NCBI GenBank assembly: GCA_951799405.1
Contig: OX637335.1
Span: forward strand, 19,100,342 to 19,164,341
Direction: 5' to 3'
DNA length: 64,000 nucleotides
DNA from: Agapetus fuscipes
Lineage: Eukaryota > Arthropoda > Insecta > Trichoptera > Glossosomatidae
Shown here: in pieces, positions 11,244 to 54,849 of the stretch
Position numbering within the stretch: the first letter of the stretch is position 1
Layout of the letters: each line of letters starts with the position of its first letter
The notes under the pieces: generated by a model
Told to the model about the DNA's origin: nothing
The model's database searches: none
Seen by the model: the letters and a program-made list of their open reading frames with translations, nothing else
Made by a program: the position numbers and the translations under genes

Positions 11244-11825
11244 ATGGTGCGATCTTATACGATCAATGAACTCCTAAGTCTGAGAAGACATAGCCCTGTC
11301 TGTCACATTGAAGTGAGCGATTGTGTGCGGAGGGTAGTGCAGGGACGGGGAGGACATGTCGTGGATAGTGCTGGGGGGAGGAGGCGCAAGCGTGGCAGGC
11401 GGGCGGGACGTCGCCTGTACTGCAGGCCACCAGCTGACAACTGCGAGGACGGCGCTGCACAGCACGAGAGGGGGCGCGCAGAGACTGACAACCTCCGCCG
11501 CCCGGAAGCCGTGGGAGTGTCAAATGGCCTCTGTAGAGGCGTCAAAGCTGATTCTGTCAGGAAGGCTGAAGAAGTGTGCGAGCGACGAAAAGAATGTGTG
11601 AGAAGAAAGTATGCGAAGAAAGAGGAATGGAAGTTTGCAACGTGGAACGTGAGGGACTGGAATGACTGTAAAGAGAGGGAAATCTCAAATATTATGAAAG
11701 AGAGAGGAATAAAAGTTCTTTGTGTGACTGAGACGAAAATGATAGGAGATGGAGAAAAGGAAATGGTAAATGGTGAATTTTTTGTATGGTGTGGGGTGAA
11801 AGATGGATACAAGAGACGGGTGTAG
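11244..11825 (+). CDS. RTE-like ORF, N-terminal part with start of endonuclease (frameshifted)
   Basis: A 193-codon frame opens at ATG 11244. Residues 1-120 are basic, rich in R/K/C and of low complexity, with no family I recognise. From about residue 132 it is the beginning of an apurinic/apyrimidinic-type endonuclease: 'ATWNVRDWND', the Glu-containing 'VLCVTETKM', and 'GEFFVWCGVKDGYKRR'. The frame ends at TAG 11823, but the homologous continuation ('GVGVIIDEKAKG') lies in the +2 frame from about 11806, so one base has been lost or gained between 11800 and 11825. Together with the next frame this gives one protein of about 1,100 residues, ordinary for RTE-type elements. I infer an inactivating frameshift rather than programmed shifting, because no heptamer slip site or pseudoknot is evident. 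Confidence 0.8.
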   Translation: MVRSYTINELLSLRRHSPVCHIEVSDCVRRVVQGRGGHVVDSAGGRRRKRGRRAGRRLYCRPPADNCEDGAAQHERGRAETDNLRRPEAVGVSNGLCRGVKADSVRKAEEVCERRKECVRRKYAKKEEWKFATWNVRDWNDCKEREISNIMKERGIKVLCVTETKMIGDGEKEMVNGEFFVWCGVKDGYKRRV

Positions 11826-14566
11826 GTGTTATCATTGATGAAAAAGCGAAAGGTTGTATTACTAAGTATGAAAGAGTCTCCCCGAGAATATTGTTAGTGA
11901 GAATGAGATTTGGACGGATGAAAGTTCTACTGATTGCGTGCTACGCCCCAGTGGACTCGGAATGCAGGGTAGTGAAAGAAGAATTCTGGGAGAAAGTTAA
12001 CATTGTTATGAGACAGAAAGAAGAGAATGAAAGAACGATTCTACTAGGAGATTTTAATGGATGGGTAGGTATGAGACAAGATGATAGCGAAAATGTGGTA
12101 GGACCGAGTGGTAAAGGTGTAGCCAATGATAACGGTAGAGCGCTAATAAGCCTATGTATGGAGCATAGACTCTTTACGTCGAATACCTGGTTCAACCACA
12201 AAAGTATACATTTGTATACGTGGCAGAACAGAGCGGGCAACCGTACAATTATTGACTACATCTGTGTGGATGAAAGAATGAGAGGGGATGTAAGAGACTC
12301 TCGAGTATACCGTGGAGCTGTGCTGAACACAGACCACTATTTGCTGTGCTCGAGAATAATGATAGGAGATGTAAAAAGAAGAGCACAAAAGGAATTGGTG
12401 AGTATGAAGCGAATAAAAGTTGAAAAAATGAATGATGTAAGTATAAAAGAAATGTACAAATGTGAGGTGAATGAAAGACTTAACCACGATGAGTTAAAAA
12501 AAACAAAAGAAGAAGGATGTGTTGAAAAAATGTGGTTAAAAATGAAAGAAAATATGATTGAATGTGCGAAATCTGTTTGTGGTGAAGCGAAGGTCTGTAA
12601 AAGAAGAGGTGATGCATGGTGGAATGACGAAGTGAGAGAAGCTATTGAACAGAAGAAGAATGCTTTTAATAGATGGCTGAATGATAGGAAAAATCAAGCT
12701 CTAGAAGAGATATATAAGCAAGCAAAACGAAGAGCCAAAACCGTCGTCTTTGAGAGTAAGATGAAAATAGAAAGTAAGGAAAATGAGAGAGCGCAGCAGA
12801 ATTTCCTCACCAATAAAAAATCATTCTGGAGCTGGGTACGTGATAAAAACGAAAGTCGCGGATCAACCACCCCAGGCATTAAAAACGCTGAGGGAATCTT
12901 GCTGTGGGACGAAAGTGATGTAAGGAAGAGATGGAATGAATATTTTAAAAATTTATATGGCCAGGGCGAAAGAGACTATTATGATGTTGAATATAATGAC
13001 AGCGATGAAGAAATTGTGAAAGAGGATGTGATAATAAGTATAAAAGATCTGAAGAATGGAAAAGCTGCTGGGAATGATGGTGTGAATGCTGAGATGATCA
13101 AATGTGCTGGGGAGTGCATGGTTGAATGGATGTTTGAACTGTGCAAGATGTGTGTGAAAGAGAGTAAAGTGCCGATGGACTGGAAAAAGGCGGTCATTGT
13201 TCCTATCTACAAAGGAAAGGGTGACAAAAAGGACTGCCAAAATTTCAGGCCCATCAGTCTTCTCAGTATAGCTGGTAAAGTATTGTGTAAGGTTCTCATA
13301 AAAAAAGTGAGACTGTCTACCGGTCATGGGGTTTCTGATATCCAGACTGGCTTTATGCCAGGAAGAGGGTGTGTAGACCAGATCTTCACTCTCAGACAGA
13401 TTGTTGAAAAACATCTGGCTGTGGGTCGGAAGGTCTACACGGCTTTTGTGGATCTCGAGAAGGCTTTTGACTCGGTGGACAGAGGTATGATGTGGAAAGT
13501 ACTCCTAAAGTACGGTGTGAACGGCAAGCTTCTGAATGGAATACGCGCCATCTATGAAAATAGTTTGGCGTGTGTAAGAGTGGATGGTAAATGTAGCGAA
13601 TGGTTTGATGTTTACAAGGGAGTACGACAGGGGTGTGTAATGAGTCCGTGGTTATTTAACATAATCATGGACAATTGTATGAAAGAAGCAGAAATTTCTC
13701 ATTATGGTGTGAAAGTGGGTGAGACGAATGTTGGAGTTCTTCTCTATGCTGACGATGCCGTAGTGTTGGCTGATACAGCGGAGGAGCTCCAGATGATACT
13801 CACCAAAATGAATGATGCTTTTAGTAAGAACGGTTTAAAAGTGAATGCCAGTAAGACGAAAGTATTAGTGTTTGACAGGACTGAGGAATGCGAGGAAATT
13901 GAGATAAGACTGAATGAAACAAGAGTGGAGGTCGTGAAAGAATTTGATTATCTGGGAAGCAAGTTTGAGTCGAATGGGAAATTGACGAAAGAATTGGAAA
14001 AGCGTGCTAGTAGAGGAAGAAGTGTAATGGGAACGATTGGAAGAATTGCAAGAAATAGGAAACTTACGAAGAATATGAGATTGGCGGTCCACAATGGTAT
14101 ATTGGTTCCGACATTGATGTATGGAAGTGAGGCGTGGACAGTTAATGAATGTGAGCTGAGTAAAGTATGTACGGTTGAAATGGCTTATCTGAGAGCAATG
14201 GCTGGAAAAACACTGAATGATAGAGTACGTAATGATTGGGTGATGAACGAGTGTGGTATAAAAGAGAATATGAGAATGAAAGTACAAAAAAGTACGATGA
14301 GATGGTTCGGACATCTCGAAAGAATGGATGATGAACGACTAACGAAGAAAGTGTACAAAGGAAATGTCAGAGGAAAGCGCGGAAGGGGAAGGCCGAGGAA
14401 AGAATGGTTAGACCAAATAGGTGAGATTGCGAAAGAATGGAACCTGCAGAGTGAAAATAAGAGAAGAGTATGTATGAAAAAGGTGATGAATATTGAGGAA
14501 ATGAAAGTGGTTTGTAAGGACAGAAAAAAGTGGAGGCGCATCTGCGGAGGTACCGGCCACCCCTAG
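11786..14566 (+). CDS. RTE-like endonuclease/reverse transcriptase
   Basis: An open frame of 926 codons. The endonuclease continues at its start: 'LLGDFNGWVG' (about residues 86-95), 'TWQNRAGNRTIIDYICVD' (about 145-162) and the 'NTDHYLL' histidine motif (about 181-187). A basic linker with 'AWWNDEVREAIEQKKNAF' follows. RT blocks: 'NFRPISLLSIAGKV' (about 486-499), 'AFVDLEKAFDSVDRG' (about 553-567, first catalytic Asp), 'GVRQGCVMSPWLFN' (about 612-625) and 'LLYADDAVVL' (about 652, catalytic YADD). 'LMYGSEAWTV', 'RWFGHLERMDDERLT' and 'GKRGRGRPRKEWLDQI' form the C-terminal region typical of this group. All catalytic residues that I can place are present, so the copy looks young apart from the frameshift upstream. 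The ATG at 11786 is only the first in this frame; the true start is upstream in the other frame. Confidence 0.92.
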   Translation: MVWGERWIQETGVGVIIDEKAKGCITKYERVSPRILLVRMRFGRMKVLLIACYAPVDSECRVVKEEFWEKVNIVMRQKEENERTILLGDFNGWVGMRQDDSENVVGPSGKGVANDNGRALISLCMEHRLFTSNTWFNHKSIHLYTWQNRAGNRTIIDYICVDERMRGDVRDSRVYRGAVLNTDHYLLCSRIMIGDVKRRAQKELVSMKRIKVEKMNDVSIKEMYKCEVNERLNHDELKKTKEEGCVEKMWLKMKENMIECAKSVCGEAKVCKRRGDAWWNDEVREAIEQKKNAFNRWLNDRKNQALEEIYKQAKRRAKTVVFESKMKIESKENERAQQNFLTNKKSFWSWVRDKNESRGSTTPGIKNAEGILLWDESDVRKRWNEYFKNLYGQGERDYYDVEYNDSDEEIVKEDVIISIKDLKNGKAAGNDGVNAEMIKCAGECMVEWMFELCKMCVKESKVPMDWKKAVIVPIYKGKGDKKDCQNFRPISLLSIAGKVLCKVLIKKVRLSTGHGVSDIQTGFMPGRGCVDQIFTLRQIVEKHLAVGRKVYTAFVDLEKAFDSVDRGMMWKVLLKYGVNGKLLNGIRAIYENSLACVRVDGKCSEWFDVYKGVRQGCVMSPWLFNIIMDNCMKEAEISHYGVKVGETNVGVLLYADDAVVLADTAEELQMILTKMNDAFSKNGLKVNASKTKVLVFDRTEECEEIEIRLNETRVEVVKEFDYLGSKFESNGKLTKELEKRASRGRSVMGTIGRIARNRKLTKNMRLAVHNGILVPTLMYGSEAWTVNECELSKVCTVEMAYLRAMAGKTLNDRVRNDWVMNECGIKENMRMKVQKSTMRWFGHLERMDDERLTKKVYKGNVRGKRGRGRPRKEWLDQIGEIAKEWNLQSENKRRVCMKKVMNIEEMKVVCKDRKKWRRICGGTGHP

Positions 14567-14800: not shown

Positions 14801-15128
14801 GTTAAATGAAATATATGAAAGGCAGATAGTTAGTTGAAAAGTTTCACACCTCGCAATGAGCATCCGTTTATACGTACGTGTATGTTCGCGCATTTGCATG
14901 AATTGTGAATGTGCACTCCAAGTTTTAGCAAATAGCCGCTCGGCCGAGTTTGGCTGTAAAATTTAGTTTATAGATTTGCGAGAAAATTGCTGCACTGTTT
15001 TATGAGAGACTTACAAAAAAGTATTTTTAATATTTTTCAGGGTTTGGTGGTTTACACAGTGAAAGTCCATTGTATAATTAATTAAATAAATACACTGTTT
15101 TAATTCACTTATTATTTTATTTTAAATA

Positions 15129-15166
15129 TGTCAAACGTTTTCGCCTAAAAAGGTATCCTCAGGACA
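15129..15166 (-). ncRNA. hammerhead-ribozyme-like motif, left arm of C1
   Basis: Read on the minus strand: TGTC (stem I), CTGAGGA (core), TACCT/AGGC stem II with a TTTT loop and one mismatch, GAAA, then AACGTT (self-complementary stem III), T, and GACA closing stem I. The stem II mismatch suggests lower activity than the right-arm copy. Confidence 0.5.
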
Positions 15167-15208
15167 ATGACGTTTTTATCATGTGAATCAAAAGACAATG
15201 ATTGTCAT

Positions 15209-15246
15209 TGTCCTGAGGATGCCTTTTTAGGCGAAAACGTTTGACA
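15209..15246 (+). ncRNA. hammerhead-ribozyme-like motif, right arm of C1
   Basis: Stem I TGTC (15209-15212) pairs with GACA (15243-15246). The core CTGAGGA is at 15213-15219 (pattern CUGANGA). Stem II is GCCT (15221-15224) with AGGC (15229-15232) and a TTTT loop. GAA follows at 15233-15235, then AACGTT at 15236-15241, the cleavage-position base T at 15242, and stem I. Stem III is a 6-base palindrome with no loop, so it would pair well only between two RNA copies or in a dimer, as reported for short-stem-III hammerheads in Penelope-like elements and retrozymes. Cleavage is inferred, not shown. Confidence 0.6.
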
Positions 15247-15757
15247 TATTTAAAATAAAATAATAAGGGAATTAAAACAGTGTTTTTATTTAATTAATTT
15301 TACAAAAAAGTGAATGTTTCTTGAAAGCCGCTTAAAAAAAATTGTCCGTTGTTTTAAAAATATGTTTCTTGGTAAATATAATATGTCATAAAAATGACCT
15401 TAGTAATCAAGTGACATTAATGAATAAAATTACGCGTGTTTTTTGATTTGTTATCTAAAATATAAAGTTAAAATTCGTTTTAAAGCTTAAAAAATGACGT
15501 CACAAAAAAAATATAAACGAGTATTGTGTTTCATCATCAGTAAGTGTTCATTTTGATCTTGATACAAAGTATCTAATATTTGCCTGCTTTTGCATATTTA
15601 TAATCGTGATATTTTACATTGAACATCCACGAGGCAGCTCTGCCCGCAGCGCTCGAGCACAGTGGAGCGGCTCCCCTCTGGCATTCACAATGGAAGGGAG
15701 AAGTGGGTAATTATGCAAGTGAAATTTCATAACAAGAGCGACTCGACTGCAATATTC

Positions 15758-16194
15758 ATATCGACGGCTAAAAGGAAGTAGGGCATAAGCGACCTTCTGG
15801 TCAAAAACGAGCTATGAATGCCATTTACTTAAAATTTTCCGCTCTTTCTAATGCGCTAACTCCCATAGCTCTACGATGATTTTTTATGTTGTTTATGCCC
15901 AAGCAAACAAGTGCGTTTTCGAAGAATAGTTTTGGTGTAACCGACAAGATTTTGGCCTTTTTTTTGTTCTGAATGCACTTGTGACATAAAAAAATCGTAA
16001 AACATCGTAAAACCACATTAATAGGAATGCCAATAAATGCTTTCATTTTTTTTTTAATCTTAGAGTTGTTTTGATTTTAATGACATGATAAAAAAAAAGT
16101 AATGCAATTTTTCTGCAATCTCAAGCTTTAAACTGCTCTCCTGTACAATTTAGTTCATGTCGCTTATGCCTTATTACCTTGTAACCGTCGATAT
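15758..16194. mobile_element. inverted-repeat DNA element, ATATCGACGG family, copy in A
   Basis: The left terminus 'ATATCGACGGCTAAAAGGAA' continuing to GCATAAGCGAC (15758-15793) is the inverse of the right terminus 'GTCGCTTATGCC' ... 'GTAACCGTCGATAT' (16159-16194). The element is 437 bp. A minus-strand frame at 15825-16046 is conserved in the B copy but shifted, and is broken in the third copy at 55.6 kb, so coding is doubtful. Non-autonomous DNA transposon of unassigned superfamily. Confidence 0.75.
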
Positions 16195-16473
16195 TAGGTA
16201 TCCCCGATGGCGTGGGGTAAGACCGAACAACGGATACCTGCTGTGTTTTATTTGAGAGGTAAGCGAGCAGACAGACAGTGGTGCTAGGTATTCATACCGC
16301 TAATAGTATGGCCTTACTTTTGTAAAGAAATGATGTAAAATATTTCTGGACTTCGACAAAGTGACAAAAATAATAGTATCAGAAAATTGTAGAAAAAAAT
16401 ATTAGTTATATTTATTTGAAATTTTATCGGGAGTTGCTGACCAATGTCAAAGCCCGGGAGGTGAACACTTTAT

Positions 16474-16690
16474 AATTAATCTAAGTTGCATAGATAAATA
16501 GACAATGAAGGTTCAAATTTAATGCACGTCCGCACGCATACACGTTTAAGCTCGCTCTAACACCATATGCTGAAGTGTACTTACAAAATAAACCGAATCT
16601 CAAATAAAAATAAACCTTGCATTTCCTTTCTATGAAATCAGGGTGGCATGGCAAAAGTGAACCATTTATTCACAACATGGTGGGTTAATA
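16474..16690 (-). repeat. RTE 3'-tail repeat, diverged copy in A
   Basis: On the minus strand: 'AACCCACCATGTTGTGAATA', 'TGGTTCACTTTTGCCATGCC' and 'GGTTTATTTTTATTTGAG', ending 'CAACTTAGATTAATTATAA'. It is shared with B (25481-25695), so it predates the A/B duplication. Confidence 0.65.
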
Positions 16691-16784
16691 AAAATAGTAT
16701 AATAAGAAGTTATTGAAAGTCAACAAAGTCCAGAAGGTGTTTTATTTGGAACATGTGCTAATAAGAGAGAAGTACGCATGAGTG

Positions 16785-16857
16785 CGCCAATAATATCAAC
16801 AAAACCCAGTTGCTTTAAGGATGGATGAATTTTCGGCGACCGTTCCTAGGTAAGCCG
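16785..16857 (-). mobile_element. SINE2 middle fragment
   Basis: On the minus strand: 'ACGGTCGCCGAAAATTCATC', 'CATCCTTAAAGCAACTGGGT' and 'TTGATATTATTGGCGC'. It parallels 58425-58490. Also present in B at 25793-25865. Confidence 0.5.
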
Positions 16858-17112
16858 TATCTAATCTAATCTAATCTAAGTTGCAAAGATATGTATGTAA
16901 CATTGGAGATTCACATTACATGCATTCTTACAACCAGACACGTACAAGTTCGCGCTTGCACATGCCTCATGTGAACCTACAACATAAAAACCAAATCTCA
17001 AATGGACAAACACCCTGCGATTCTTTACGTCCTTCCCTGAAACAGGGGTGACATTGGTAAAGTTAACCATTTTTACAGCATGGGTGGTCAGCCGCATACC
17101 AACCTATAAGTC
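16858..17112 (-). repeat. RTE 3'-tail repeat, GATTA-ended subtype, in A
   Basis: A complete tail on the minus strand, from 'TTGACTTATAGGTTGGTATG' through 'CACCCCTGTTTCAGGGAAGG' to 'CTTAGATTAGATTAGATTAG'. The B copy is at 25866-26121. Confidence 0.85.
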
Positions 17113-17119
17113 AACCTAT

Positions 17120-17591
17120 CTATAATCTATAATCTAAGTTGCAAGGATATATTCATTCAAAGCTCTCAGATGTATGCCCACAAACAAACACGTGTAGTTC
17201 GCGCTTACAAATGCTGATTGTGTACTTACAAATAAAATCCAAACCTCAAATGAACATAAGCCCTGCAACTCTTGCCGACATTCCCTGAAACAGGGGTGAC
17301 ATTGGCAAAGTGAACCATTTTTTACAGTATGGGTGGTCAGCCTCATACCAACCTATAAGTCAAGGAATACGAGTAATAAATAACATTTAAGTATAAGAAA
17401 ACAACAAAACCTTAAAAATAAATCTTTACAAAAAAAGAAAAAAATGTCTTATGCAAAAAATGTAGCAAGCCAATAAACCAACATTAAAAATCAGCATTGC
17501 AGATTAGCCGCCACTTCTTCCTGTCATTGCATACTTCTTTCATTTCATCCAGAGTCATAACTTTTTTCATACAAGCTCTCCTTTTATTATG
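17120..17591 (-). mobile_element. 5'-truncated RTE-like insertion with target-site duplication
   Basis: The sequence ACCTAT flanks it on both sides (17114-17119 and 17592-17597). The empty site is present once in body B (26117-26122 region, 'GTCAACCTATGATTTTTT'). Reading on the minus strand: last coding codons, a 3' UTR of about 115 bases, then the complete tail ending in TATAGAT repeats. This shows directly that the 250-base tail is the end of an RTE element. It was inserted after A and B were duplicated. Confidence 0.9.
17484..17591 (-). pseudogene. RTE-like ORF, last 35 codons
   Basis: The minus strand encodes 'HNKRRACMKKVMTLDEMK' and 'EVCNDRKKWRLICNADF' followed by TAA. It matches the C-terminus of the frame at 33224-34420 residue for residue over most positions. 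Only the end of the protein is present because of 5' truncation at insertion. Confidence 0.85.
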
Positions 17592-17629
17592 ACCTATGAT
17601 TTTTTAAAAACATAAATTAGTTGTTCTAC

Positions 17630-17705
17630 GCCGGTTATGGAACCCTCAATTAACTCAAACACAAGTAGATCGGATTAACCACTAGACTACAGACTGGTTG
17701 AACTA
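17630..17705 (-). mobile_element. tRNA-like SINE head (decayed)
   Basis: On the minus strand 'GTAGTCTAGTGGTTAATCC' resembles an A box and 'GGGTTCCATAACC' resembles a B box. The spacing fits a tRNA-derived promoter. The same head occurs in B at 26155-26230. It resembles the head of the SINE at 58287. Confidence 0.5.
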
Positions 17706-17839
17706 TTTTGATACTTGGTTTATTTAATTTTACATTAAAACTTTAACTCTGAATCTTTAAAATATGTATATCAATTTAAATCCACAGTGAACCATTTTGT
17801 TTCATTTTTGTTAAACCGTGTAAACGTCTACGATTTTTC

Positions 17840-17998
17840 ATCCCTCACCGCTGGTTCGTATGCACTTTAGTTACTAGGCGCATGGGAAATTGTTTTTGGC
17901 GAAATGCAACGCTTTCACCGCCGCCATACACTTGCATATTCACGTCTTCTAGACTGCACTGAGAGTGCACTAAAAGATTTAAAAGAAAAATCAAAATG
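17840..17998 (+). pseudogene. exon-like conserved frame in A, with an in-frame stop
   Basis: The A copy of the frame seen intact at 26303-26533. Here the codon TGG of B is TAG (in 'CACTTTAGTTACTAGG'), and several codons differ non-synonymously. Composition is less AT-rich than the surroundings. No family recognised. Confidence 0.35.
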
Positions 17999-18133
17999 AA
18001 GTGCATCGATCAAAATAACATTCGACGTTCAATGCAATTTTTAAAATAACTGCATGCATGGTTTGATGGTAGATTGTAATTTATTCACATATATTAAACT
18101 GTAATGTTTTAAAATAAACATTTATTTATCTAT

Positions 18134-18199
18134 CCCTTGACTAATAAGCTGGTATGAGGCTGACCAACCATGCTGTAAAAAATGGTTCACTTTGCAAAT
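18134..18199 (+). repeat. RTE 3'-tail repeat, 66-base start only
   Basis: 'CCTTGACTAATAAGCTGGTA' to 'TGGTTCACTTTGCAAAT', cut where the MITE at 18200 is inserted. In B the same fragment (26877-26943) runs directly into the opposed tail. Confidence 0.75.
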
Positions 18200-18450
18200 C
18201 GCTGCCTTACTTGTTTGCCGTATAGACCATTCAGCTAATTTTACAAGAGCAATGTTTGCATGTGTACTGGACCAATGTGTCTTATGAAAACAGGAAATTG
18301 ATTTAAAAAATATTTAAAACAACTCTCACATTTCGAGTTTTACGTTTTTTCTTAGTTCAGATTGTGTAAAATTTGATTCTTAAGACAACTGCATTAAAAA
18401 GTCATATTTGACAGAATTGGTCTATACGGCAAACAAGAACCGGAGGTTCG
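18200..18450 (+). mobile_element. MITE-like insertion, AGTGCTTGTTTG family, with empty site in B
   Basis: Inverted ends 'CTTGTTTGCCGTATAGACCA' and 'TGGTCTATACGGCAAACAAG' are a perfect 20-base match. AAAT flanks both sides (18196-18199, 18451-18454) and occurs once at the unoccupied position in B (near 26938). The element therefore inserted into A after duplication, apparently with a 3-4 bp target duplication. Confidence 0.85.
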
Positions 18451-18486
18451 AAATGTCATCCCTGTTATACCAACCTATAATCAAGG

Positions 18487-18722
18487 AACACAAATAATCT
18501 ATAATCTACGATGCAAAGATATATTACATTTGAGATTCATATTAATTGCATTCTCATAAGTTTGCGCTTACACATGTCGCATCTGGACTAACAAAATAAC
18601 CCAACTCAAATAAATATAACTCTGCGACTCTGGCCAACCTTCCCTAAAACTAACATTGGCAAAGTTAAACATTTTTTTACAGTATTGGTGGTCAGCCTTA
18701 TACCATCCTTTAAGTCAAGGAA
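18487..18722 (-). repeat. RTE 3'-tail repeat, diverged copy in A
   Basis: The minus strand has 'CTTAAAGGATGGTATAAGGC', 'AATGTTAGTTTTAGGGAAGG' and 'CATCGTAGATTATAGATTAT'. The CCCCTGTTTCAGGG hairpin is lost. B copy at 26960-27215. Confidence 0.65.
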
Positions 18723-18924
18723 TACAAACAGTAAATAGCAATAAATAAATAAGTTAATTTAAAAAATGAAAATAATAATATTGGTTTTAACATGCACTCA
18801 CTTTTATTTGAGGGTTTTATGAGCACATTGTTTGGTTATATGCAATCCAACGTTTAGCGAAGCTTTGTATGTTCTGCTATAAGGAAGGCTGTGTTGCGGG
18901 TTACTGTTGTCCCCCTTGAGAAAA

Positions 18925-19035
18925 GCTCTCGTGGCTGAGCAGGAGGAGGGGTGGGTGAAGAGTGGGGGAGGAAATCTTGTACTCAGACAGTGGGGGGTGG
19001 GAGTTAGAGAAAGGGTTGTAGGGTAGATGAGAAGG
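18925..19035 (+). other. G-rich segment conserved between A and B
   Basis: Runs such as 'GGAGGAGGGGTGGG', 'GTGGGGGAGG' and 'CAGTGGGGGGTGGGAG' stand out in AT-rich sequence and are kept in B (27445-27520). Four or more G runs close together could form a G-quadruplex on this strand. Read on the minus strand it is a long C/T-rich stretch encoding only low-complexity residues. Confidence 0.4.
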
Positions 19036-19640
19036 AAAATGAAAGACGTGTAATGGAGAGCTTGTTGTGCGAACATTTTGGACGAATAAAATAAATAATA
19101 ATCGAAAAAATAAATACGTAAGTTTTTGAAGATAAATAAATAAACACAGATTGCGATACCACAAAATAAAGAAAACAACGTTTTTTATTAAAAATTAGTC
19201 ATCGTTAGGAGTATTTTTTTAAACGTTGTAATGTTTTGAATTACATGCATACAAATAAATTTACTTACGTCTCATTTAATAAATAAATCATTAAAAAACG
19301 TCCAAAAAAAATTTTTATATTGGAATTTTGCAATAAATAAAATATTTCAACATACAAAAATACATTATTGAATTAATTAGATTGCCATATTCATTGAATT
19401 TGCCGGCTGATATATGAGCTAATAAAAATCTTGCTTTCCACGCCAAAGAGCTAGGGTTTAATCTCAACCAAAGATATCTAACAGAAATGATGTATTCATT
19501 TATTTAAAAAAACACACAAACAAGATAACATGAAAGTGCTATACTTTAAAGTTGATGTCCATTTCGATTATGTTTATTTCAAACTCTAAATAAAAAAGAT
19601 TCACTCAGCCTCTGCTTACTTACAAGAAAATTAATTACAT

Positions 19641-19955
19641 TTGCAGCTAATTTATCTTAAGCTTGATTTGAAAAAATATCTGACCAGTTTTTATTTGATT
19701 TGTTCTCATTGCTCGTTCTTGTTCGTGAATGTTCACGCGGAAGAGGGGCACGTTGTTGGTTATGATGTGGTTACTACCAAGACTGGCTGTAGAGGGGAGG
19801 CAGTGAGATTATATGCGAGTGCATGTCCGGTAAATGTTAATTACCGGAAGAACGGTCCTGCCTCCGACCCCAGGACGATAACACCATCCTCAGATTTGAA
19901 AGACTCGTTAAGAAGCTGGGATGGGGTTTTGGGTAATGTAATCAAAGATTTATGA
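19641..19955 (+). CDS. uncharacterised conserved frame in body A
   Basis: A 104-codon frame. Its last 70 codons, from 'FVNVHAEEGHVVGYDVVTTK' to 'SDLKDSLRSWDGVLG', are GC-richer than the surroundings and almost unchanged in the B copy (28153-28446). The N-terminal third is hydrophobic (LICSHCSFLFVNV) and could be a signal-like segment, but its upstream part differs between copies. I recognise no family. It may be an exon of a captured gene or an untranslated conserved block; the two copies also differ at the very end (frame change after 'SWD'). Confidence 0.3.
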   Translation: MQLIYLKLDLKKYLTSFYLICSHCSFLFVNVHAEEGHVVGYDVVTTKTGCRGEAVRLYASACPVNVNYRKNGPASDPRTITPSSDLKDSLRSWDGVLGNVIKDL

Positions 19956-20068
19956 GCAATTGTGCTTGAAATAAGATGGTCTTTATGTTTTGTGAAGTAT
20001 GTTTACCCTAATTTAAAAAAATTAAATAAATACAGTGTTTTAATTCACTTATTATTTTATTTTAAATA

Positions 20069-20106
20069 TGTCAAACGTTTTCGCCTAAAAAGGTATCCTC
20101 AGGACA
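20069..20106 (-). ncRNA. hammerhead-ribozyme-like motif, left arm of C2
   Basis: Same layout as 15129-15166 on the minus strand: TGTC, CTGAGGA, mismatched stem II with TTTT loop, GAAA, palindromic AACGTT, T, GACA. Confidence 0.5.
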
Positions 20107-20148
20107 ATGACGTTTGTATCATGTAAATCAAAAGACAATGATTGTCAT

Positions 20149-20186
20149 TGTCCTGAGGATGCCTTTTTAGGCGAAAACGTTTGACA
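20149..20186 (+). ncRNA. hammerhead-ribozyme-like motif, right arm of C2
   Basis: Identical in every core position to 15209-15246: TGTC/GACA stem I, CTGAGGA, GCCT-TTTT-AGGC stem II, GAAA, AACGTT. Confidence 0.6.
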
Positions 20187-20214
20187 TATTTAAAATAAAA
20201 TAATAAGGGAATTA

Positions 20215-20469
20215 TTCCTTGACTTATAGGTTGGTATGAGGCTGACCACCCATACTGTAAAAAATGGTTCACTTTGCCAATGTCACCCCTGTTTCAGGGA
20301 AGGTCGGCAAAAGTTGTGGGGCTTATGTTCATTTGAGGTTTGGATTTTATTTGTAAGTACACATTCAGCATTTGTAAGCGCGAACTACACTTGTTGGTTT
20401 GTGGGCATACATCTGAGAGCTTTAAATGAATATATCCTTGCAACTTAGATTATAGATTATAGATTATAG
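20215..20469 (+). repeat. RTE 3'-tail insertion inside repeat C2
   Basis: From 'TTCCTTGACTTATAGGTTGG' to three TATAGAT-type units. C1 has the unoccupied site 'GGGAATTAAAACAG' at 15267-15280. At most one base (A) is duplicated, so this insertion left essentially no target-site duplication, unlike 17120-17591. Confidence 0.9.
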
Positions 20470-20819
20470 AAAACAGTGTTTTTATTTAATTAATTTTACA
20501 AAAAAGTGAATGTTTCTTGAAAGCCGCTTAAAAAAAATTGTCCGTTGTTTTAAAAATATGTTTCTTGGTAAATATAATACGTCATAAAAATGACCTTAGT
20601 AATCAAGTGACATTAATGAATAAAATTACGCGTGTTTTTTGATTTGTTATCTAAAATATAAAGTTAAAATTCGTTTTATAGCTTAAAAAATGACGTCACA
20701 AAAAAAATATAAACGAGTATTGTGTTTCATCATCAGTAAGTGTTCATTTTGATCTTGATACAAAGTATCTAATATTCGCCTGCTTTTGCATATTTATAAT
20801 CGCGATATTTTACATTTAA

Positions 20820-24667: not shown

Positions 24668-24803
24668 AACATCCACGAGGCAGCTCTGCCCGCAGCGCTC
24701 GAGCACAGTGAAGCGGCTCCCCTCTGGCATTCACAATGGAAGGGAGAAGTGGGTAATTATGCAAGTGAAATTTCATAACAAGAGCGACTCGACTGCAATA
24801 TTC

Positions 24804-25228
24804 ATATCGACGGCTAAAAGGAAGTAGGGCATAAGCGACGTTATGGTCAAAAACGAGTTATAATGCTATTCTACTTAAAATTTTCCGCTCTTTCTAATGC
24901 GCTAACTCCCATAGCTCTACGATGATTTTTATGTTGCTTATGTCCAAGCAAACAAGTGCGTTTTCGAAGTATAGTTTTGGTGTAACCGACAAGATTTTGG
25001 CCTTTTTTTGTCCTAAATGCACTTGTGACATAAAAAAATCGTAAAACCACATTAATAGGAATGCCAATAAATGCTTTCATTTTTTTTTTAATCTTAGAGT
25101 TGTTTTGATTTTAACGACATGATAAAAAAAAAGTAATGCAATTTTTCTGCAATCTCAAGCTTTAAACTGCTCTCCTGTACAATTTAGTTCATGTCGCTTA
25201 TGCCTTATTACCTTGTAACCGTCGATAT
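24804..25228. mobile_element. inverted-repeat DNA element, ATATCGACGG family, copy in B
   Basis: Same termini as 15758-16194. A dozen bases shorter because of small deletions around 25020-25050, which shift the reading frame relative to A. Confidence 0.75.
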
Positions 25229-25480
25229 TAGGTATCCCCGATGGCGTGGGGTAAGACCGAACAACGGATACCTGCTGTGTTTTATTTGAGAGGTAAGCGA
25301 GCAGACAGACAGTGGTGCTAGGTATTCATACCGCTAATAGTATGGCCTTACTTTTGTAAAGAAATGATGTAAAATATTTCTGGACTTCGACAAAGTGACA
25401 AAAATGATAGTATCAGAAAATTGTAGAAAAAAATATTAGTTATATTTATTTGAAATTTTATCGGGAGTTGCTGACCAATG

Positions 25481-25695
25481 TCAAAGCCTGGGAGGTAAAC
25501 ACTTTATAATTAATATAAGTTGCATAGATAAATAGACGATGAAGGCTCATATTTAATGCGCGTCCGCACGCATACACGTTTAAGCTCGCTTTAACACCAT
25601 ATGCTGAAGTGTACTTACAAAATAAACGGAATTTCAAATAAAAATAAACCTTGCATTTCCTTTCTATGAAATCAGGGTGGCATGGCAAAAGTGAA
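25481..25695 (-). repeat. RTE 3'-tail repeat, diverged copy in B
   Basis: Counterpart of 16474-16690, differing by scattered substitutions. Confidence 0.65.
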
Positions 25696-25865
25696 CCATT
25701 TATTCACAACATGGTGGGTTAGTAAAAATAGTATAATAAGAAGTTATTGAAAGTCAACAAAGTCCAGAAGGTGTTTCATTTGGTACGCCTGAGAGCGCCA
25801 ATAATATAAACAAAACCCAGTTGCTTTAAGGATGGATGAATTTTCGGCGACCGTTCCTAGGTAAG

Positions 25866-26121
25866 CCGTATCTAATCTAATCTAATCTAAGTTGCAAAGA
25901 TATGTATGTAACATTGGAGATTCACATTACATGCATTCTTACAACCAAACACGTACAAGTTCACGCTTGCACATGCCTCATGTGAACCTACAACATAAAA
26001 ACCAAATGTCAAATGGACATACACCCTGCAATTCTTCCCGTCCTTCCCTGAAACAGGGGTGACATTGGTAAAGTGAACCATTTTTACAGCATGGGTGGTC
26101 AGCCGCATACCAACCTATAAG
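25866..26121 (-). repeat. RTE 3'-tail repeat, GATTA-ended subtype, in B
   Basis: Counterpart of 16858-17112. Immediately after it lies the unoccupied ACCTAT site of the RTE insertion seen in A. Confidence 0.85.
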
Positions 26122-26154
26122 TCAACCTATGATTTTTTAAAAACATAAATTAGT

Positions 26155-26230
26155 TGTTCTACGCCGGTTATGGAACCCTCAATTAACTCAAACACAAGTA
26201 GATCGGATTAACCACTAGACTACAGACTGG
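26155..26230 (-). mobile_element. tRNA-like SINE head (decayed), in B
   Basis: Counterpart of 17630-17705, with 'GTAGTCTAGTGGTTAATCC' and 'GGGTTCCATAACC' on the minus strand. Confidence 0.5.
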
Positions 26231-26302
26231 TTGAACTATTTTGATACTTGGTTTATTATATTTTACATCAAGGCTTTAATTCTGATTCTTTAAAATATAG
26301 GT

Positions 26303-26533
26303 ATGTATTTTAAAGGCACAGTGAACCATTTTGTTTCATTTTTGTTAAACCGGGTAAACGTCTACGATTTTTCATCCCTCACCGCTGGTTCGTATGCACT
26401 TTGGTTACTAGGCGCATGGGAAATTGTTTTTAGCGAAATGCAACGCTTTCACCACCGCCATACGCTTGCATATTTACGTCTTCTAGACTGCACTGAGAGT
26501 GCACTACAAGAGCTTAAAGAAAAATCAAAATAA
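26303..26533 (+). CDS. uncharacterised exon-like frame in body B
   Basis: 76 codons from ATG 26303, ending TAA. The segment 'GSYALWLLGAWEIVFSEMQR', 'FHHRHTLAYLRLLDC' and 'ALQELKEKSK' has a protein-like composition, with a hydrophobic stretch then an amphipathic basic-acidic end. In A the same frame is interrupted by TAG. Substitutions between the copies are mostly non-synonymous, which argues against strong present-day constraint. No family recognised. Confidence 0.3.
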   Translation: MYFKGTVNHFVSFLLNRVNVYDFSSLTAGSYALWLLGAWEIVFSEMQRFHHRHTLAYLRLLDCTESALQELKEKSK

Positions 26534-26653
26534 AGTGCATCGATCAAAATAACATTAAACTTTCAATGCAATTTTTAAAATAACTGCATACACGCTTGAT
26601 GGTAGTTTGTAATTTATTCACATATAATAAACTGCAATATTTAAAAAAAAACA

Positions 26654-26868
26654 TATATTAATTAAATAAACAAAGTTTTAATTCACTTTTATAATTCTTT
26701 ATTTATGTCAAGCACTTTCGCTTGTCCTGATGATGCCCTGTAGGCGAAAGTGCTTGACATAAATAAAGAATTATAAAAGTGAATTAAAATTTTGTTTATT
26801 TAATTAATATACTCGTACAATGGACTTTCACTGTGTAAACCACCAAACCGTTACAAATATTATATATT
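26654..26868. mobile_element. long-hairpin (fold-back) element in body B
   Basis: Arms 26657-26721 and 26744-26808 are near-perfect 65-base reverse complements around a 22-base loop that carries a ribozyme core. The right flank 'CAATGGACTTTCACTGTGTA' is the inverse of the left flank of C1. Body A lacks this insertion at the corresponding site (near 18116). Confidence 0.85.
26723..26759 (+). ncRNA. hammerhead-ribozyme-like motif with canonical CTGATGA core
   Basis: Stem I TGTC (26723-26726) pairs with GACA (26756-26759). The core CTGATGA is at 26727-26733. Stem II is GCC (26735-26737) with GGC (26743-26745) and a CTGTA loop. GAA is at 26746-26748, then AGTGCT (26749-26754), self-pairing with two G-U pairs as a dimeric stem III, and T at the cleavage position. 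All 13 conserved core bases that I can place are present. Confidence 0.6.
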
Positions 26869-26876
26869 AATCTATT

Positions 26877-26943
26877 CCTTGACTTATAGGCTGGTATGAG
26901 GCTGACCACCCATGCTGTAAAAAATGGTTCACTTTGCAAATGT
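26877..26943 (+). repeat. RTE 3'-tail repeat, start only, in B
   Basis: Counterpart of 18134-18199, uninterrupted. It runs into 'GTCATCCCTGTTATACCAAC' and an opposed tail. Confidence 0.75.
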
Positions 26944-27218
26944 CATCCCTGTTATACCAACCTATAAGTCAAGGAACACAAATAATCTATAACCTACGAT
27001 GCAAAGATATATTCCATTTAAGATTCAAATTAAATGCATTCAATACGCAGACACGTATAAGTTCGCGCTTACACATGCCGCATCTGGACTAACAAAATAA
27101 CCCAACTCAAATAAATATAACTCTGCGACTCTGGCCAACCTTCCCTAAAACTAACATTGGCAAAGTAAACCATTTTTTTAGAGTATGGGTGGTCAGCCGT
27201 ATACCATCCTTTAAGTTC
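26944..27218 (-). repeat. RTE 3'-tail repeat, diverged copy in B
   Basis: Counterpart of 18455-18722, with the additional 'GTCTGCGTATTG' piece at 27040-27052 that A has lost. Confidence 0.65.
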
Positions 27219-28152
27219 AGGAATACAAATAGTACCTAAATAGCAATAAATAAATAAGTTAATATTAAAAATTTAAATAATAATATTGGTTTTAACATGC
27301 ACTTACGTTTATTTGAGGGTTTTATGAGCACATTGTTTGGTTATATGCAATCCAACGTTTAGCGAAGCTTTGTATGTTCTGCTATAAGGAAGGCTGTGTT
27401 GCGGGTTACTGTTGTCCCCCTTGAGAAAAGCTCTCGTGGCTGAGCAGGATGAGGGGTGGGTGAAGAGTGGGGGAGGAAATCTTGTACTCAGACAGTGGGG
27501 GGTGGGAGTTAGAGAAAGGGTTGTAGGGGAGATGAGAAGGAAAATGAAAGACGTGTAATGGAGAGCTTGTTGTGCGAACATTTTGGACGAATAAAATAAA
27601 TAATAATCGAAAAAATAAATACGTTAGTTTTTGAAGATAAATAAATAAAAACAGATTGCGATACCACAAAATAAAGAAAACAACGTTTTTTAATAAAAAT
27701 TAGTCATCGTTAGGAGTATTTTTTAAACGTTGTAAAGTTTTGAATTACATGCATACAAGTAAATTGACTTACGTCTCATTTAATAAATAAATCATTAAAA
27801 AACGTCCAAAAAAAATCTTTTCATTGGAATTTTGCAACAAATAAAATATTTCAACATACAAAAATACATTATTGAATTAATTAGATTGCCATATTCATTG
27901 AATTTGCCGGCTGATATATGAGCTAATAAAAATCTTGCTTTCCACGCCAAAGAGCTAGGGTTTAATCTCAACCAAAGATATCTAACAGAAATGATGTATT
28001 CATTTATTTAAAAAAACACACAAACAAGATAACATGAAGGTGCTATACCATAAAGTGGATGTCCATTTCGATGATGTTTATTTCAAACTCTAATTAAAAA
28101 CTGTAAAAATTTACTCAGCCTCTGTTTTAACTTACAAGACAGTGAATTAAAT

Positions 28153-28446
28153 TTGCATATAAGTTATCCAAATTTTAAAAAATATCTGACAAGTTTTAAT
28201 TTCATTTGTTTTCATTGCTCGTTCTTGTTCGTGAATGTTCACGTGGAAAAGGGGCCAGTTGTTGGTTATGATGTGGTTACTACCAAGACTGGCTCTAGAG
28301 GGGAGGCAGTGAGATTATATGCGAGTGCATGTCCGGTAAATGTTAATTACCGGAAGAACGGTCCTGCCTCCGACCCCAGGACGATAACACCATCCTCAGA
28401 TTTGAAAGACTCGTTAAGAAGCTGGGATGAGGTTTGGGTAATGTAA
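28153..28446 (+). CDS. uncharacterised conserved frame in body B
   Basis: 97 codons. From 'LFVNVHVEKGPVVGYDVVTT' to 'SSDLKDSLRSWDEVW' it is nearly identical to 19641-19955, with Cys to Ser and His to Pro changes. No ATG is shared between the copies near the conserved block, so the start is unsupported. Unknown function. Confidence 0.3.
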   Translation: MHISYPNFKKYLTSFNFICFHCSFLFVNVHVEKGPVVGYDVVTTKTGSRGEAVRLYASACPVNVNYRKNGPASDPRTITPSSDLKDSLRSWDEVWVM

Positions 28447-28527
28447 TCAAAGATTCATGAGCAATTGTGCTTGAAATAAGATGGTCTTTATGTTTTGTGA
28501 AGCATGTTTACCCTAATTTAAAAAAAA

Positions 28528-28937
28528 ATGAAAATAGCCTGTGTTTTATTCTACTATTATTTTTTATTTATTTTCAAAGGTTATCTTAATTTTGTTTTTT
28601 TTAATTAAAATGGAGTTCTACAAAGTTTCAGCTGAAACATTAAAAAAATAGTCATGTTTACCCTTTTTCATTTTTGTCTTGATCATTGTTCAGTGATTGC
28701 AATAAAATAACATCTAGAACATTTGTTGATCAATCATTAAACATCTCCTCATGTACCCAAAATCTTGAATCAAGAGCACTTGAACTTATTTCCAAGAGTT
28801 TAGTTCGTTTAAAAATAGACACGTTAGATATGACTACGACGAAAAGTCGTGAAACTTCTTCTTCTCCACAAACTTTTTTTAAAATACGTTTTTTTAACAA
28901 CGTCAAACCACCCTGATTTTTATCGTTTTAATCATTT
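28528..28937. other. AT-rich stretch with no recognised gene
   Basis: A 76-codon frame at 28686-28916 (S/T/K-rich) shows no motif. Confidence 0.35.
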
Positions 28938-33089: not shown

Positions 33090-33205
33090 TCCTTCTTCTT
33101 CTTCTTCTTATATTACATACTAGATCTGGTTATGGCAGAGCTCCCTTCTGTGATGCAGAAGACCAGTTGTTCATACATCTCTTAAATGGACCGGCTTAGT
33201 GGACG
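33090..33205. repeat. (CTT)n end of an unidentified LINE-type repeat
   Basis: 'CTTCTTCTTCTTCTT' is followed by 'CAGAGCTCCCTTCTGTGATG' and 'CAGAAGACCAGTTGTTCATA'. The second part recurs at 47218-47262 ('CGGAACTCCCTCCTGTGACG'), so it is a dispersed repeat, read as the minus-strand 3' end of a retroposon. Confidence 0.4.
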
Positions 33206-33223
33206 CTGATCGTCTGGTATCTC

Positions 33224-34420
33224 GTGTGCAACGATTTTATAAAATCAGTTGAAAAACAATTGTCGGTGAGGCGGAAGCTGTTCACGGCCTTTGTAGATCT
33301 GGAAAAGGCTTTTGACTCAGTAGACAGAGGTATGTTATGGGATGTTTTGAAAGCATACGGAGTGAATGGGGCTCTCCTAGGTGCGGTGCATGCAAACTAT
33401 GAAAATAGTAAGGCATGTGTTCGTATTGATGGTGAGTATAGTGAGTGGTTTGAAGTTTATAAGGGTGTGAGGCAAGGATGTGTGATGAGTCCATGGCTAT
33501 TTAACATAGTCATGGACAAGTGTGTCAGAGATGCTCGACTTAATGATTGTGGATTGACGATAGGAGAGAGCAAAGTGAGTGTTTTACTGTATGCAGATGA
33601 TGCAGTTCTTGTTTCTGATTCAGCAGTAGAATTGCAAACAATGCTCTCTAGATTGAATGAAGCTTTGTTAGGTAACCATCTGAAGTTGAATGCAAGTAAG
33701 ACGAAAGTATTGATTTTTGAAAGAGATTATGAAAGTATGAATTATGAATTTAAAATTAATGGAATGAATGTTGATGTCGTAAATGAGTTTGTATACCTGG
33801 GAAGTATGTTTGAAAAAGATGGAAGAATGACCGGTGAATTTGAAAGAAGAGTAATGAAGGGCAGGTGTGTACTGGGTGCCACAGCTTGTATCGCCAAAAA
33901 TCAAAACATATCTAAAAATGCTCGATTGGCGGTACGCAGTGGCATACTTTTACCCACCTTGATGTATGGAAGCGAGGCCTGGACGGTGAATGAAAGTGAA
34001 ATTAGTAAAGTCCATACTGTTGAAATGGACTTTCTAAGAAGTATGATTGGGAAAAAACGGAGTGACAGGGTGAGGAATGATTTTGTAAGACAAGAATGTG
34101 GTGCAAGAGAAAGTGTGAAAGTGAAGATTAAAAGAAGTTTGTTAAGATGGTTTGGGCATATGGAGAGAATGAATGAGGAAAGACTGACGAAGAAAGTAAA
34201 TGTTGGTAGAATAGATGGATGTCGTGGTAGAGGAAGACCGAGAAAGGTATGGATGGACCAAATATCCGAAATTGCGAATGAATGGAAAATCCAGAGTCAT
34301 AATAAAAGAAGAGCTTGTATGAAGAAGGTTATGACTCTGGAGGAAATGAAAGAAGTATGTAAGGATAGAAAGAAATGGCGGTTGATCTGTGATGTTGGCG
34401 GCTGGGGTTTGTTAAAGTAA
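33224..34420 (+). CDS. RTE-like reverse transcriptase, 5'-truncated ORF
   Basis: 398 codons without a stop. Homology to the 926-residue frame starts at 'VEKQLSVRRKLFTAFVDLEK' (about residues 9-28) and runs to the end. It includes 'FDSVDRGMLW' (first catalytic Asp in AFVDLEKAFD), 'GVRQGCVMSPWLFNIVMD', 'VLLYADDAVL', 'LMYGSEAWTVNES', 'RWFGHMERMNEERLTKKV', 'GRGRPRKVWMDQISEIANEW' and 'VCKDRKKWRLICDVGG'. The endonuclease and RT motif 1-2 regions are missing by truncation near 33235, and the ATG at 33224 lies in pre-existing sequence. The uninterrupted frame implies a recent insertion. Confidence 0.88.
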   Translation: MCNDFIKSVEKQLSVRRKLFTAFVDLEKAFDSVDRGMLWDVLKAYGVNGALLGAVHANYENSKACVRIDGEYSEWFEVYKGVRQGCVMSPWLFNIVMDKCVRDARLNDCGLTIGESKVSVLLYADDAVLVSDSAVELQTMLSRLNEALLGNHLKLNASKTKVLIFERDYESMNYEFKINGMNVDVVNEFVYLGSMFEKDGRMTGEFERRVMKGRCVLGATACIAKNQNISKNARLAVRSGILLPTLMYGSEAWTVNESEISKVHTVEMDFLRSMIGKKRSDRVRNDFVRQECGARESVKVKIKRSLLRWFGHMERMNEERLTKKVNVGRIDGCRGRGRPRKVWMDQISEIANEWKIQSHNKRRACMKKVMTLEEMKEVCKDRKKWRLICDVGGWGLLK

Positions 34421-34765
34421 AATTGGTTTTGTGATTTAGTTTTTTATGTCAATGTATATATTGTTATTTTATTGATTTTAAAAATGTAATTTGTCATGTA
34501 TGTTCCTTGACTTATAGGTTGTTATGCGGCTGACCACCCATACTGTAAAAAAATTGGTTCACTTTGCCAATGTCACCCCTGTTTCAGGGAAGGACGGCAA
34601 GAGTTGCAAGGCTTATGTTCATTTGAGATTGGGTTTTTATATTGTAGGTCCACATGCGGCATGTGTTAGCTCGAAATTATACATATCTGCTTGTGGGAAT
34701 GCATTTAATATAAATCTTACATGATATATATCTTTGCAGCTTAGATTAGATTAGATTAGAATCCT
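33235..34765 (+). mobile_element. 5'-truncated RTE-like LINE with long 3' UTR and GATTA tail
   Basis: Coding part, then about 80 bases of 3' UTR ('GATTTTAAAAATGTAATTTG'), then the 250-base tail, then 'TTAGATTAGATTAGATTAGA'. This copy defines the link between the RTE protein and the commonest repeat of the window. It differs from the 11.2-14.6 kb subfamily, whose stop is followed by a very short end. Confidence 0.88.
34503..34765 (+). repeat. RTE 3' tail attached to its parent ORF (reference copy)
   Basis: It contains 'CCTTGACTTATAGGTTG', 'CACCCCTGTTTCAGGG' (a perfect 5-bp stem CCCTG/CAGGG with TTT loop) and 'CTTTGCAGCTTAGATTAG'. Such a 3' hairpin plus short tandem end is the expected recognition signal for the element's own RT. 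Confidence 0.88.
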
Positions 34766-38530: not shown

Positions 38531-38621
38531 ACATTAGATTTATAAAGGAGAGTTGGCTTTTATTTATTTTATCAAAAATATATAAACACAGTTTATATTT
38601 ATTACTAACACTGTGTTTATT

Positions 38622-39880: not shown

Positions 39881-39923
39881 AAAGAAGTCATCCAAATATA
39901 TATAAGGTGAGTTTATTCAATTT

Positions 39924-39965
39924 CACGACCGGTTTCGCAAATAACCCGTTTGCATCTTCAGGTGG
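39924..39965 (-). ncRNA. hammerhead-ribozyme-like motif, best formed in the window
   Basis: On the minus strand: stem I CAC paired with GTG, core CTGAAGA, stem II GCAAA/TTTGC (5 perfect pairs, 7-base loop CGGGTTA), GAAA, self-complementary stem III ACCGGT, then C, so the cleavage triplet is GTC, the preferred one. It follows an L2-like fragment and faces a degenerate inverted copy at 39975-40030. No larger element boundary is clear. Confidence 0.65.
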
Positions 39966-39974
39966 CTTTTGTAA

Positions 39975-44235: not shown

Positions 44236-44256
44236 CCTACCAAATTTTAGTAATAT

Positions 44257-49275: not shown

Positions 49276-49278
49276 TAC

Positions 49279-54500: not shown

Positions 54501-54700
54501 GACAGACATGGAGAAGATAGGAGGATGCCTACGTTCAGGAGTGGACTGAGAAAGGCTGAGGAAGAAGAAAAAGATTCTAACTATTGTGAGTAATGCGTAG
54601 CATACTGACCAACGCTACCGACTCGTACCCAAAAGTCTGTGGGCTTAGTTTCCGTCGAAGTGTAAATAAACTTACTATTTTTAATAATTTAAACAATTAT

Positions 54701-54747
54701 TCCCCTGAAGATGTCTTACCTACTCGTATAAGGCGAAAACGTTTGAG
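54701..54747 (+). ncRNA. hammerhead-like motif with long stem II
   Basis: Core CTGAAGA (54705-54711). Stem II is GTCTTA (54713-54718) with TAAGGC (54729-54734), six pairs including one G-U, and a 10-base loop. GAA is at 54735-54737, then palindromic AACGTT at 54738-54743 and T. Stem I is poor (CCC opposite GAG). It shares the core layout of the C1 motif outside any hairpin. Confidence 0.5.
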
Positions 54748-54849
54748 CAAAACAGAAACACAAAGTGAATTAAATCTGTGTGTTTTATATTTAATTTGTT
54801 AAGAAATACAACAGAAAAACCCAAAAAAATATATAACTTCTTATTTTTT

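Follow-up and report, generated by a model that had tools for sequence, protein, structure and literature searches.

A protein-less hairpin with hammerhead-like motifs and its kinship with Penelope-like loci in Agapetus fuscipes

A hairpin that encodes no protein carries a hammerhead-ribozyme-like core on each of its arms, as noticed in a sequence-only reading of the window, by which we mean the whole 64,000-nucleotide stretch analysed here (C3:19100342-19164341 of a 618-Mb assembly). This raises the question of what kind of element it is, and how two such cores came to face each other. The hairpin is in all likelihood (probability about 0.8) a non-autonomous, protein-less Penelope-like element consisting of two pLTRs placed head to head, with an origin by two-sided priming. 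Each pLTR would begin with a minimal type I hammerhead-like motif, only one of the two would carry the Penelope tail, that is, the start of the Penelope reading frame, and the whole would be framed by a target-site duplication of about 12 bp.

Anatomy of the hairpin and of its motifs

The arms of copy 1 (15070-15171 and 15204-15305) are 102 nt each, 96% complementary and 32 nt apart. Since TTACAAAAAAGT stands as a direct repeat on both sides, the insert can be delimited between its two occurrences, with the minus strand as the sense strand (Table 1). Read on that strand, the order is inverted arm, loop, tailed arm and tail.

Table 1. Features of the hairpin element and related motifs in the window
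Feature	Position	Strand	Basis or remark
Miniature Penelope-like hairpin element, copy 1	15023..15299	-	102-nt arms, 12-bp direct repeat and genome copies built alike
Target-site duplication, left copy, TTACAAAAAAGT, 12 bp	15011..15022	.	Direct repeat
Target-site duplication, right copy, TTACAAAAAAGT, 12 bp	15300..15311	.	Direct repeat
Tail, ATACAATGGACTTTCACTGTGTAAACCACCAAACCCTGAAAAATAT, opening frame MDFHCVNHQTLKN	15030..15075	-	Single-sided in 39/39 copies; similar tail beside the motif in L068, L069, L071 and L074
Loop (head-to-head junction), 36 nt	15170..15205	.	Variable among the 39 examined copies, 17-45 nt
Hammerhead-like motif, tailed (sense) arm; A.C pair at stem II base	15123..15169	-	Predicted cut between 15133 and 15132, minus strand
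Hammerhead-like motif, inverted arm; stems I (4 bp), II (3-4 bp) and III (AACGTT)	15206..15252	+	Predicted cut after 15242
Copy 2 of the hairpin	20020..20214	-	Interrupted near 20214 by a SINE-like insertion of ~255 nt; arm resumes from 20470
Copy 3, second hairpin family	26663..26861	+	One complete hammerhead-like motif, 26720-26765; tail ~26817-26861
Copy 3 target-site duplication, ATATATTAAT	26653..26662 and 26862-26871	.	Read by eye against the empty site
Third related motif	54698..54754	+	Core retained, longer hairpin in place of stem II, stem I lost
Hammerhead-like motif, other lineage, GCGAAACCGGTC	39917..39968	-	Head to head with a decayed partner near 39984-40030 (+)

On the plus strand the right arm reads TTGTC-CTGAGGA-T-GCC-TTTTTA-GGC-GAAA-ACGTT-T^GACA, and on the minus strand the left arm matches this core except that TACC replaces TGCC. 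The TGTC starting at 15129, the GACA ending at 15246 and the order of the motifs between them are as first reported; so are the opposite orientation of the two cores (right arm on the plus strand, left arm on the minus strand) and the minimal type I hammerhead-like core with its self-complementary short stem III, seen in the motif letters. The claim of a complete type I hammerhead on each arm stands for the right arm, with an extra U, and fails for the left, where TACC instead of TGCC turns the basal pair of stem II into an A.C mismatch and so leaves the core incomplete. Among 78 arms, just two, one each in copy 1 and L056, have the mismatched A, which is therefore not the family state. All seven aligned window motifs have an additional U between A9 and stem II, so that neither arm of copy 1 is strictly canonical. 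Natural hammerheads with extra bases at the site after A9 are known. The components of a type I hammerhead (a CUGANGA...GAAA core, stems I-III and NUH before the cut) are found in the right arm and in most genome copies. Pairing in stem I amounts to 4 bp only, and no internal loop is apparent there.

A transcript spanning both arms is predicted to form a long hairpin, with energies of -138.6 and -147.7 kcal/mol depending on the strand, in which the ribozyme would accordingly be hidden. Energy folding of the dimers that we tried did not give the hammerhead as the minimum-energy fold; dimers of the left arm and of the motif at 54.7 kb were poor.

The presence of hammerhead-like motifs in the hairpin is confirmed and lies above chance. 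CTGANGA-gap-GAAA occurs 16 times in the window compared to 4.3 expected. The descriptor search proposed by the sequence-only reading, with a full descriptor (stems I, II and III, NUH and at most one extra base) written once the motif had been seen, gives four matches (15213, 20153, 26727 and 39961) against a mean of 0.0067 in shuffled sequence (2 in total in 300 shuffles); two of the four are duplicate copies, and both left arms and the 54.7-kb motif fail it. The proposed Rfam check came out negative: there were no matches at gathering score over the window, and no hammerhead family appeared up to E = 10 on 14900-15500, 15200-15260 and 39910-39975.

In an alignment of the seven window motifs (five distinct rows), the 19 invariant letters include all 11 fixed core letters, a result that is partly circular because some motifs had been found by the core itself. 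Plain BLAST with the hairpin, which is not circular, also recovers copy 3 (E 6e-27) and the 54.7-kb motif (2e-6); the latter match starts in the 3′ strand of stem II, upstream of which stand, in place, CTGANGA and a different, longer stem II. Imposing the hammerhead structure on the alignment, we found that 5 of 10 pairs change on both sides, covering all three helices; none of 500 shuffles reaches five pairs and slid structures give 0 or 1. A motif model (R2) whose training left out the motifs at 54.7 and 39.9 kb recovers that at 54698 with E 3e-4 but that at 39917 only with 0.23. Viral and phage searches returned nothing relevant: several gave zero hits, and the 14 pattern matches obtained otherwise score at most 19.2 bits, compared to 52.8-74.1 for the window motifs, which are the training rows of the motif model itself.

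Copy 2 is 98.5% identical to 15080-15274, and the block goes on as 15274-15623 = 20470-20819 (98.6%). Given these 324 nt of shared right flank beyond the insert, copy 2 is a duplicate of copy 1 rather than an independent insertion. This rules out that copies 1 and 2 are direct repeats capturing the host segment 15622-20014 in the style of Adineta. The junction of copy 3 falls within the motif, and its empty site lies near 18120; automated comparison recovers 8 bp of the target-site duplication ATATATTAAT. The motif at 54698..54754 is single, with no inverted partner seen. A motif-like stretch at 38618-38651 (-) has the core halves without stem II, followed by similar AT-rich letters, and is perhaps a decayed relative.

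Hairpin copies and Penelope-like loci across the genome

A 251-nt query gave 82 matches in at least 40 distinct places, 40 of 1646 first-look candidates having been scored. We examined the 39 copies nearest to the query (family 1), leaving out copy 2 as a duplicate of copy 1; they comprise copy 1 itself and two sets of 19 other loci. All 39 have two head-to-head arms and a single-sided tail, with tail scores of 77-92 on one side versus 12-21 on the other. In 34 of the 39, a flank word of at least 10 bp (mode 12) is common to both sides, compared to 2.45% of mismatched flank pairs (n = 2000). The loops differ even between copies with identical arms (L050, L053 and L054; L057, L060 and L063), and those of L017, L024 and L044 hold pieces copied from the arm. 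In the frame MDFHCVNHQTLKN opened by the tail, five changes are common to at least five copies; third-position changes that leave the residue as it was make up three of them, and the other two alter it, a pattern that is at most suggestive.

Long near-perfect inverted arms, short size and a narrow duplication length are what a fold-back or MITE-like DNA transposon would show, in which case the hammerhead-like letters would be there by chance. But in 39 of 39 copies the insert runs about 46 nt past the arm on one side only, so that its two ends are unequal and the terminal inverted repeats are not symmetrical, and the same motif with a like tail and like duplications surrounds GIY-YIG frames, as described below. 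This explanation is largely refuted, and we regard it as very improbable.

For the second family, queried with copy 3, there were 85 matches (40 of 975 candidates scored), and 20 returned loci were examined. Two head-to-head arms and a single-sided tail are found in all 20, the tail being weak in L094 (42 versus 18). A flank word of at least 10 bp is present in 13 of the 20, a count that has no separate null. Junction positions are many, lying within the hammerhead or next to it, and one arm or both are cut short there. In L095, downstream of the motif, one arm has no differences from one subfamily and the other has one difference from another; this mixture, which none of the other 19 loci displays, could reflect later gene conversion. 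Taken together, loops that differ between identical arms and variable family-2 junctions suggest that every insertion forms a junction of its own, either during the event or very shortly afterwards.

A genome search for GIY-YIG (PF01541) returned at least 16 loci, 150 of 973 candidates having been scored. The motif model matches in 13 of these 16 (E 3e-11 to 8e-5); in 11 loci the motif lies downstream of the frame on the same strand. In L066, for example, a frame of 480 aa with RVT_1 (8e-13) and GIY-YIG (4e-6) lies between an inverted (minus) and a direct (plus) motif. By Pfam, the frame of L069 contains GIY-YIG alone, reverse transcriptase being shown in L066 only, and that of L070 matches no Pfam family.

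Three loci are built in the same way as the hairpin around a coding body: L068, L069 and L071 consist of an inverted motif without tail, a 5′-truncated GIY-YIG frame and a direct motif with tail, and have target-site duplications of 11, 13 and 12 bp. The distance between their two motif starts is 651, 1102 and 1307 nt, whereas in copy 1 only the 36-nt loop separates the arms. The hairpin-like tail ..TGGACTTTCACTGTGT.. is found in L069 and L071, and L068 has it with a single-letter change. Alignments with the tailed arm of copy 1 were obtained for L079 (8e-28), L071 (2e-20), L074 (4e-20) and L069 (8e-19), and for none of 14 viral contigs, a weak control. No subsequent tail follows the frame-adjoining motif in L072, L073, L075 and L077; in two of these, L072 and L077, the opposite strand holds a tail-like match. 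Among the scored candidates (150 of 973 for GIY-YIG, 40 of 1646 for the hairpin), none was a coding element with exactly the pLTR of copy 1.

Because the same motif, a like tail and like duplications recur at GIY-YIG loci, the hairpin corresponds to the two ends of a Penelope insert that lacks its body. It has an inverted and a direct pLTR with one tail, a short duplication and a pLTR hammerhead motif as in the coding copies; without a reverse transcriptase or GIY-YIG frame of its own, it is filed as a Penelope-derived non-autonomous element and not as a Penelope. The link to Penelope-like elements made in the sequence-only reading therefore holds, and of the protein-less fold-back element that it described, the lack of protein stands and an unrelated fold-back does not. 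Against this kinship count the three loci without a motif-model match (L064, L076 and L078) and the position of the motif on the strand opposite the frame in L065 and L079.

Origin of the hairpin and role of the ribozyme

We infer that the hairpins are mobilised in trans and arise by two-sided priming. A Penelope reverse transcriptase/GIY-YIG endonuclease supplied in trans would cut AT-rich DNA in a staggered manner, and each target end would serve as a primer on uncleaved RNA, with reverse transcription beginning in the tail on one side and inside the pLTR on the other. Both cDNAs would extend as far as the 5′ end of the RNA, immediately upstream of the hammerhead, before being joined head to head, leaving a new loop at each insertion. 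Two-sided priming and the joining of two cDNAs would explain the inverted arms, the duplications and the new junctions, and the complete hammerheads in the arms imply that the templates were not cleaved there. The second ribozyme would be a by-product of joining two copies and not part of a design with one ribozyme per strand. Two independent primings leave one tail per copy unexplained unless the two sides start differently; the single-sided tail would then mean that reverse transcription begins at a different point from each target end. Also to be set against this origin are repair at the palindrome centre following insertion, another possible source of variable loops, and the finding of arms of mixed subfamilies in only 1 of 20 copies.

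In an alternative, a master hairpin is retroposed as one RNA, with both arms and the tail, and the loops change later by breakage and repair at the palindrome centre. Such an origin needs no further assumption for one tail per copy. It is consistent with the perfect or near-perfect palindromes among the loops and with the arms of one copy usually sharing subfamily changes (mean of 1.97 differences within family-1 copies versus 8.85 between copies). It does not account well for loops that are wholly different between copies with identical arms, for family-2 junctions truncating either arm at many positions, for the two subfamilies in L095, or for GIY-YIG loci built alike around bodies of varied length. 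We consider a master hairpin unlikely and favour the joining of two cDNAs.

Next, we compared the conservation of the core with that of its surroundings. Cores as variable as their flanks, which the sequence-only reading had named as a sign against it, were not found: in 78 arms, the 11 fixed core letters have 6 changes in 858, versus 231 in 4680 at 60 flank positions (four of these columns being present in one arm only). The core rate is seven times below the flank rate, in a contrast that is overstated because many flank changes are common to subfamilies. A change present in both arms of a copy was present in its source; such changes affect 0 of 11 core sites versus 24 of 83 others (one-sided p = 0.031, with an alignment slip included among the 24). 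Private changes, in one arm only, occur at 6 of the 11 core sites. In a count of distinct changes, the core has 0 shared and 7 private ones and the other sites have 27 and 80, a difference that is not significant (p = 0.14).

Shared changes in the motif affect N7, position 17 and stems I and III, and are mostly allowed, the position being free or the pairing preserved. One subfamily is without the outermost stem I pair. In L062, both arms have a G at position 17, which the NUH rule forbids. We ruled out ACTTT as a broken stem III in one subfamily, as the raw letters read AACTGTT and the pairs are kept.

Beside coding frames, C3 or U4 of the motif is changed in 8 of the 13 motif-bearing GIY-YIG loci, as CCGA in L067, L070 and L072 and as TTGA in L068, L069, L071, L073 and L075. 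CTGANGA is kept in L065, L066, L074, L077 and L079, and L068 has a further intact motif. Some coding lineages thus seem to have spread despite damage to the core, which the examined miniatures mostly keep.

The motif may then be a hammerhead relic without a role, its letters persisting because the copies are young or because they form a primer- or protein-binding site. The damaged cores beside frames and the G at position 17 in both arms of L062 point this way, as does the p value of only 0.03 for changes in both arms. In addition, one Penelope ribozyme cleaves only with protein and is dispensable for insertion in vitro (PMC11167929). The sevenfold lower rate of change in core letters, the concentration of shared changes at hammerhead-free or pairing-preserving positions and the covariation across families all argue against a relic. 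We regard it as possible, if somewhat doubtful. More speculative, and rather unlikely in our judgement, is a parasite of Penelope whose RNA comprises approximately the hammerhead, a 75-nt repeat and the tail, and which spreads by two-sided reverse transcription, at times with two RNAs per insertion. Here the ribozyme would serve the miniature and not the coding element, since the miniature core is intact and several coding lineages have lost theirs; it might, for instance, release the miniature RNA out of read-through transcripts or detach it from the inverted arm.

Relation to known elements and other features of the window

Penelope-like pLTRs carry a minimal type I motif with almost no stem III (Cervera and de la Pena 2014; Lunse 2017, via PMC7761336 and PMC11167929), and dispersed hammerhead copies in non-coding DNA have already been reported (PMC7761336). 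The hairpins resemble pLTR hammerheads in having such a motif in a terminal repeat, and differ in that two motifs stand head to head, with no body and with an extra U after A9.

The closest build is that of Penelope inserts in Adineta vaga, for which an inverted and a direct pLTR, one short tail and duplications of 8-10 bp are described, with a frame that starts in the pLTR plus tail; solo pLTRs are mentioned as well (PMC3846280). The hairpin likewise has a pLTR pair, a single tail and a short duplication. The described Adineta inserts hold a coding body or captured DNA, whereas the body is absent here, in at least 40 family-1 places and 20 family-2 loci.

In the Anolis Poseidon element PAc, the enzyme cuts and extends both DNA strands, reverse transcription starts inside the RNA, and uncleaved RNA is the main insertion substrate (PMC11167929). 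The PAc frame begins at hammerhead stem II, and its start codon precedes the cut site by 26 nt (PMC11167929); similarly, an ATG at 15219 precedes the predicted cut in copy 1 by 24 nt. Unlike the hairpin, PAc as described there is full-length, coding and tandem (PMC11167929).

Animal retrozymes share with the hairpin a lack of coding capacity, type I hammerheads and low GC (PMC7229834). They form direct tandem repeats of some 170-400 nt and, in most invertebrates, cleave efficiently (PMC7229834), whereas the units are inverted in all 39 + 20 copies that we examined and the direct tandem repeat of a retrozyme is not found. Among titles and the opening parts of abstracts, no such hairpin miniature came up; the key papers on Penelope hammerheads may hold an earlier description.

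Inserts without a body that preserve their junctions are a natural record of how Penelope-like insertion finishes, a poorly understood step. There are 39 + 20 examined inserts in the two families and perhaps many more (1646 and 975 first-look candidates, of which 40 each were scored). The hairpins also provide a concrete origin for orphan minimal hammerheads of the kind that has been reported from the genomes of animals. Finally, miniatures that keep the core, set beside coding lineages that lost it, offer a comparative test of how much the ribozyme matters.

Several other features of the window were recorded. The duplicated block (15080-15623 / 20020-20819, ~98.5%), which contains most of the hairpin and its right flank, brackets the segment 15622-20014, and the palindrome looks as if it marked the breakpoint of this duplication. 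Segments 15622-20014 and 24668-28530 are ~93-95% identical across aligned pieces. Both carry a conserved frame ending in VVGYDVVTTKTG(C/S)RGEAVRLYASACPVNVNYRKNGPASDPRTITPSSDLKDSLRSWD, which looks like a host exon; neither frame has a Pfam match, and the second has no PDB match either. Frames with RVT_1 at 11777-14566, 33200-34420 and 44254-45810 probably belong to non-LTR elements, the first being open for 929 codons with a weak endonuclease match below cut-off. A tandem repeat at 60876-61287 has a unit of 124 nt in 3.3 copies with 93% matches. A SINE-like repeat of ~250 nt occurs at 16859-17369, 20213-20467, 34482-34760, 40722-40998, 49278-49530, 51301-51579 and 61743-62020; some of its copies adjoin TCTAA/TTAGA runs, and one is the insertion that interrupts hairpin copy 2.
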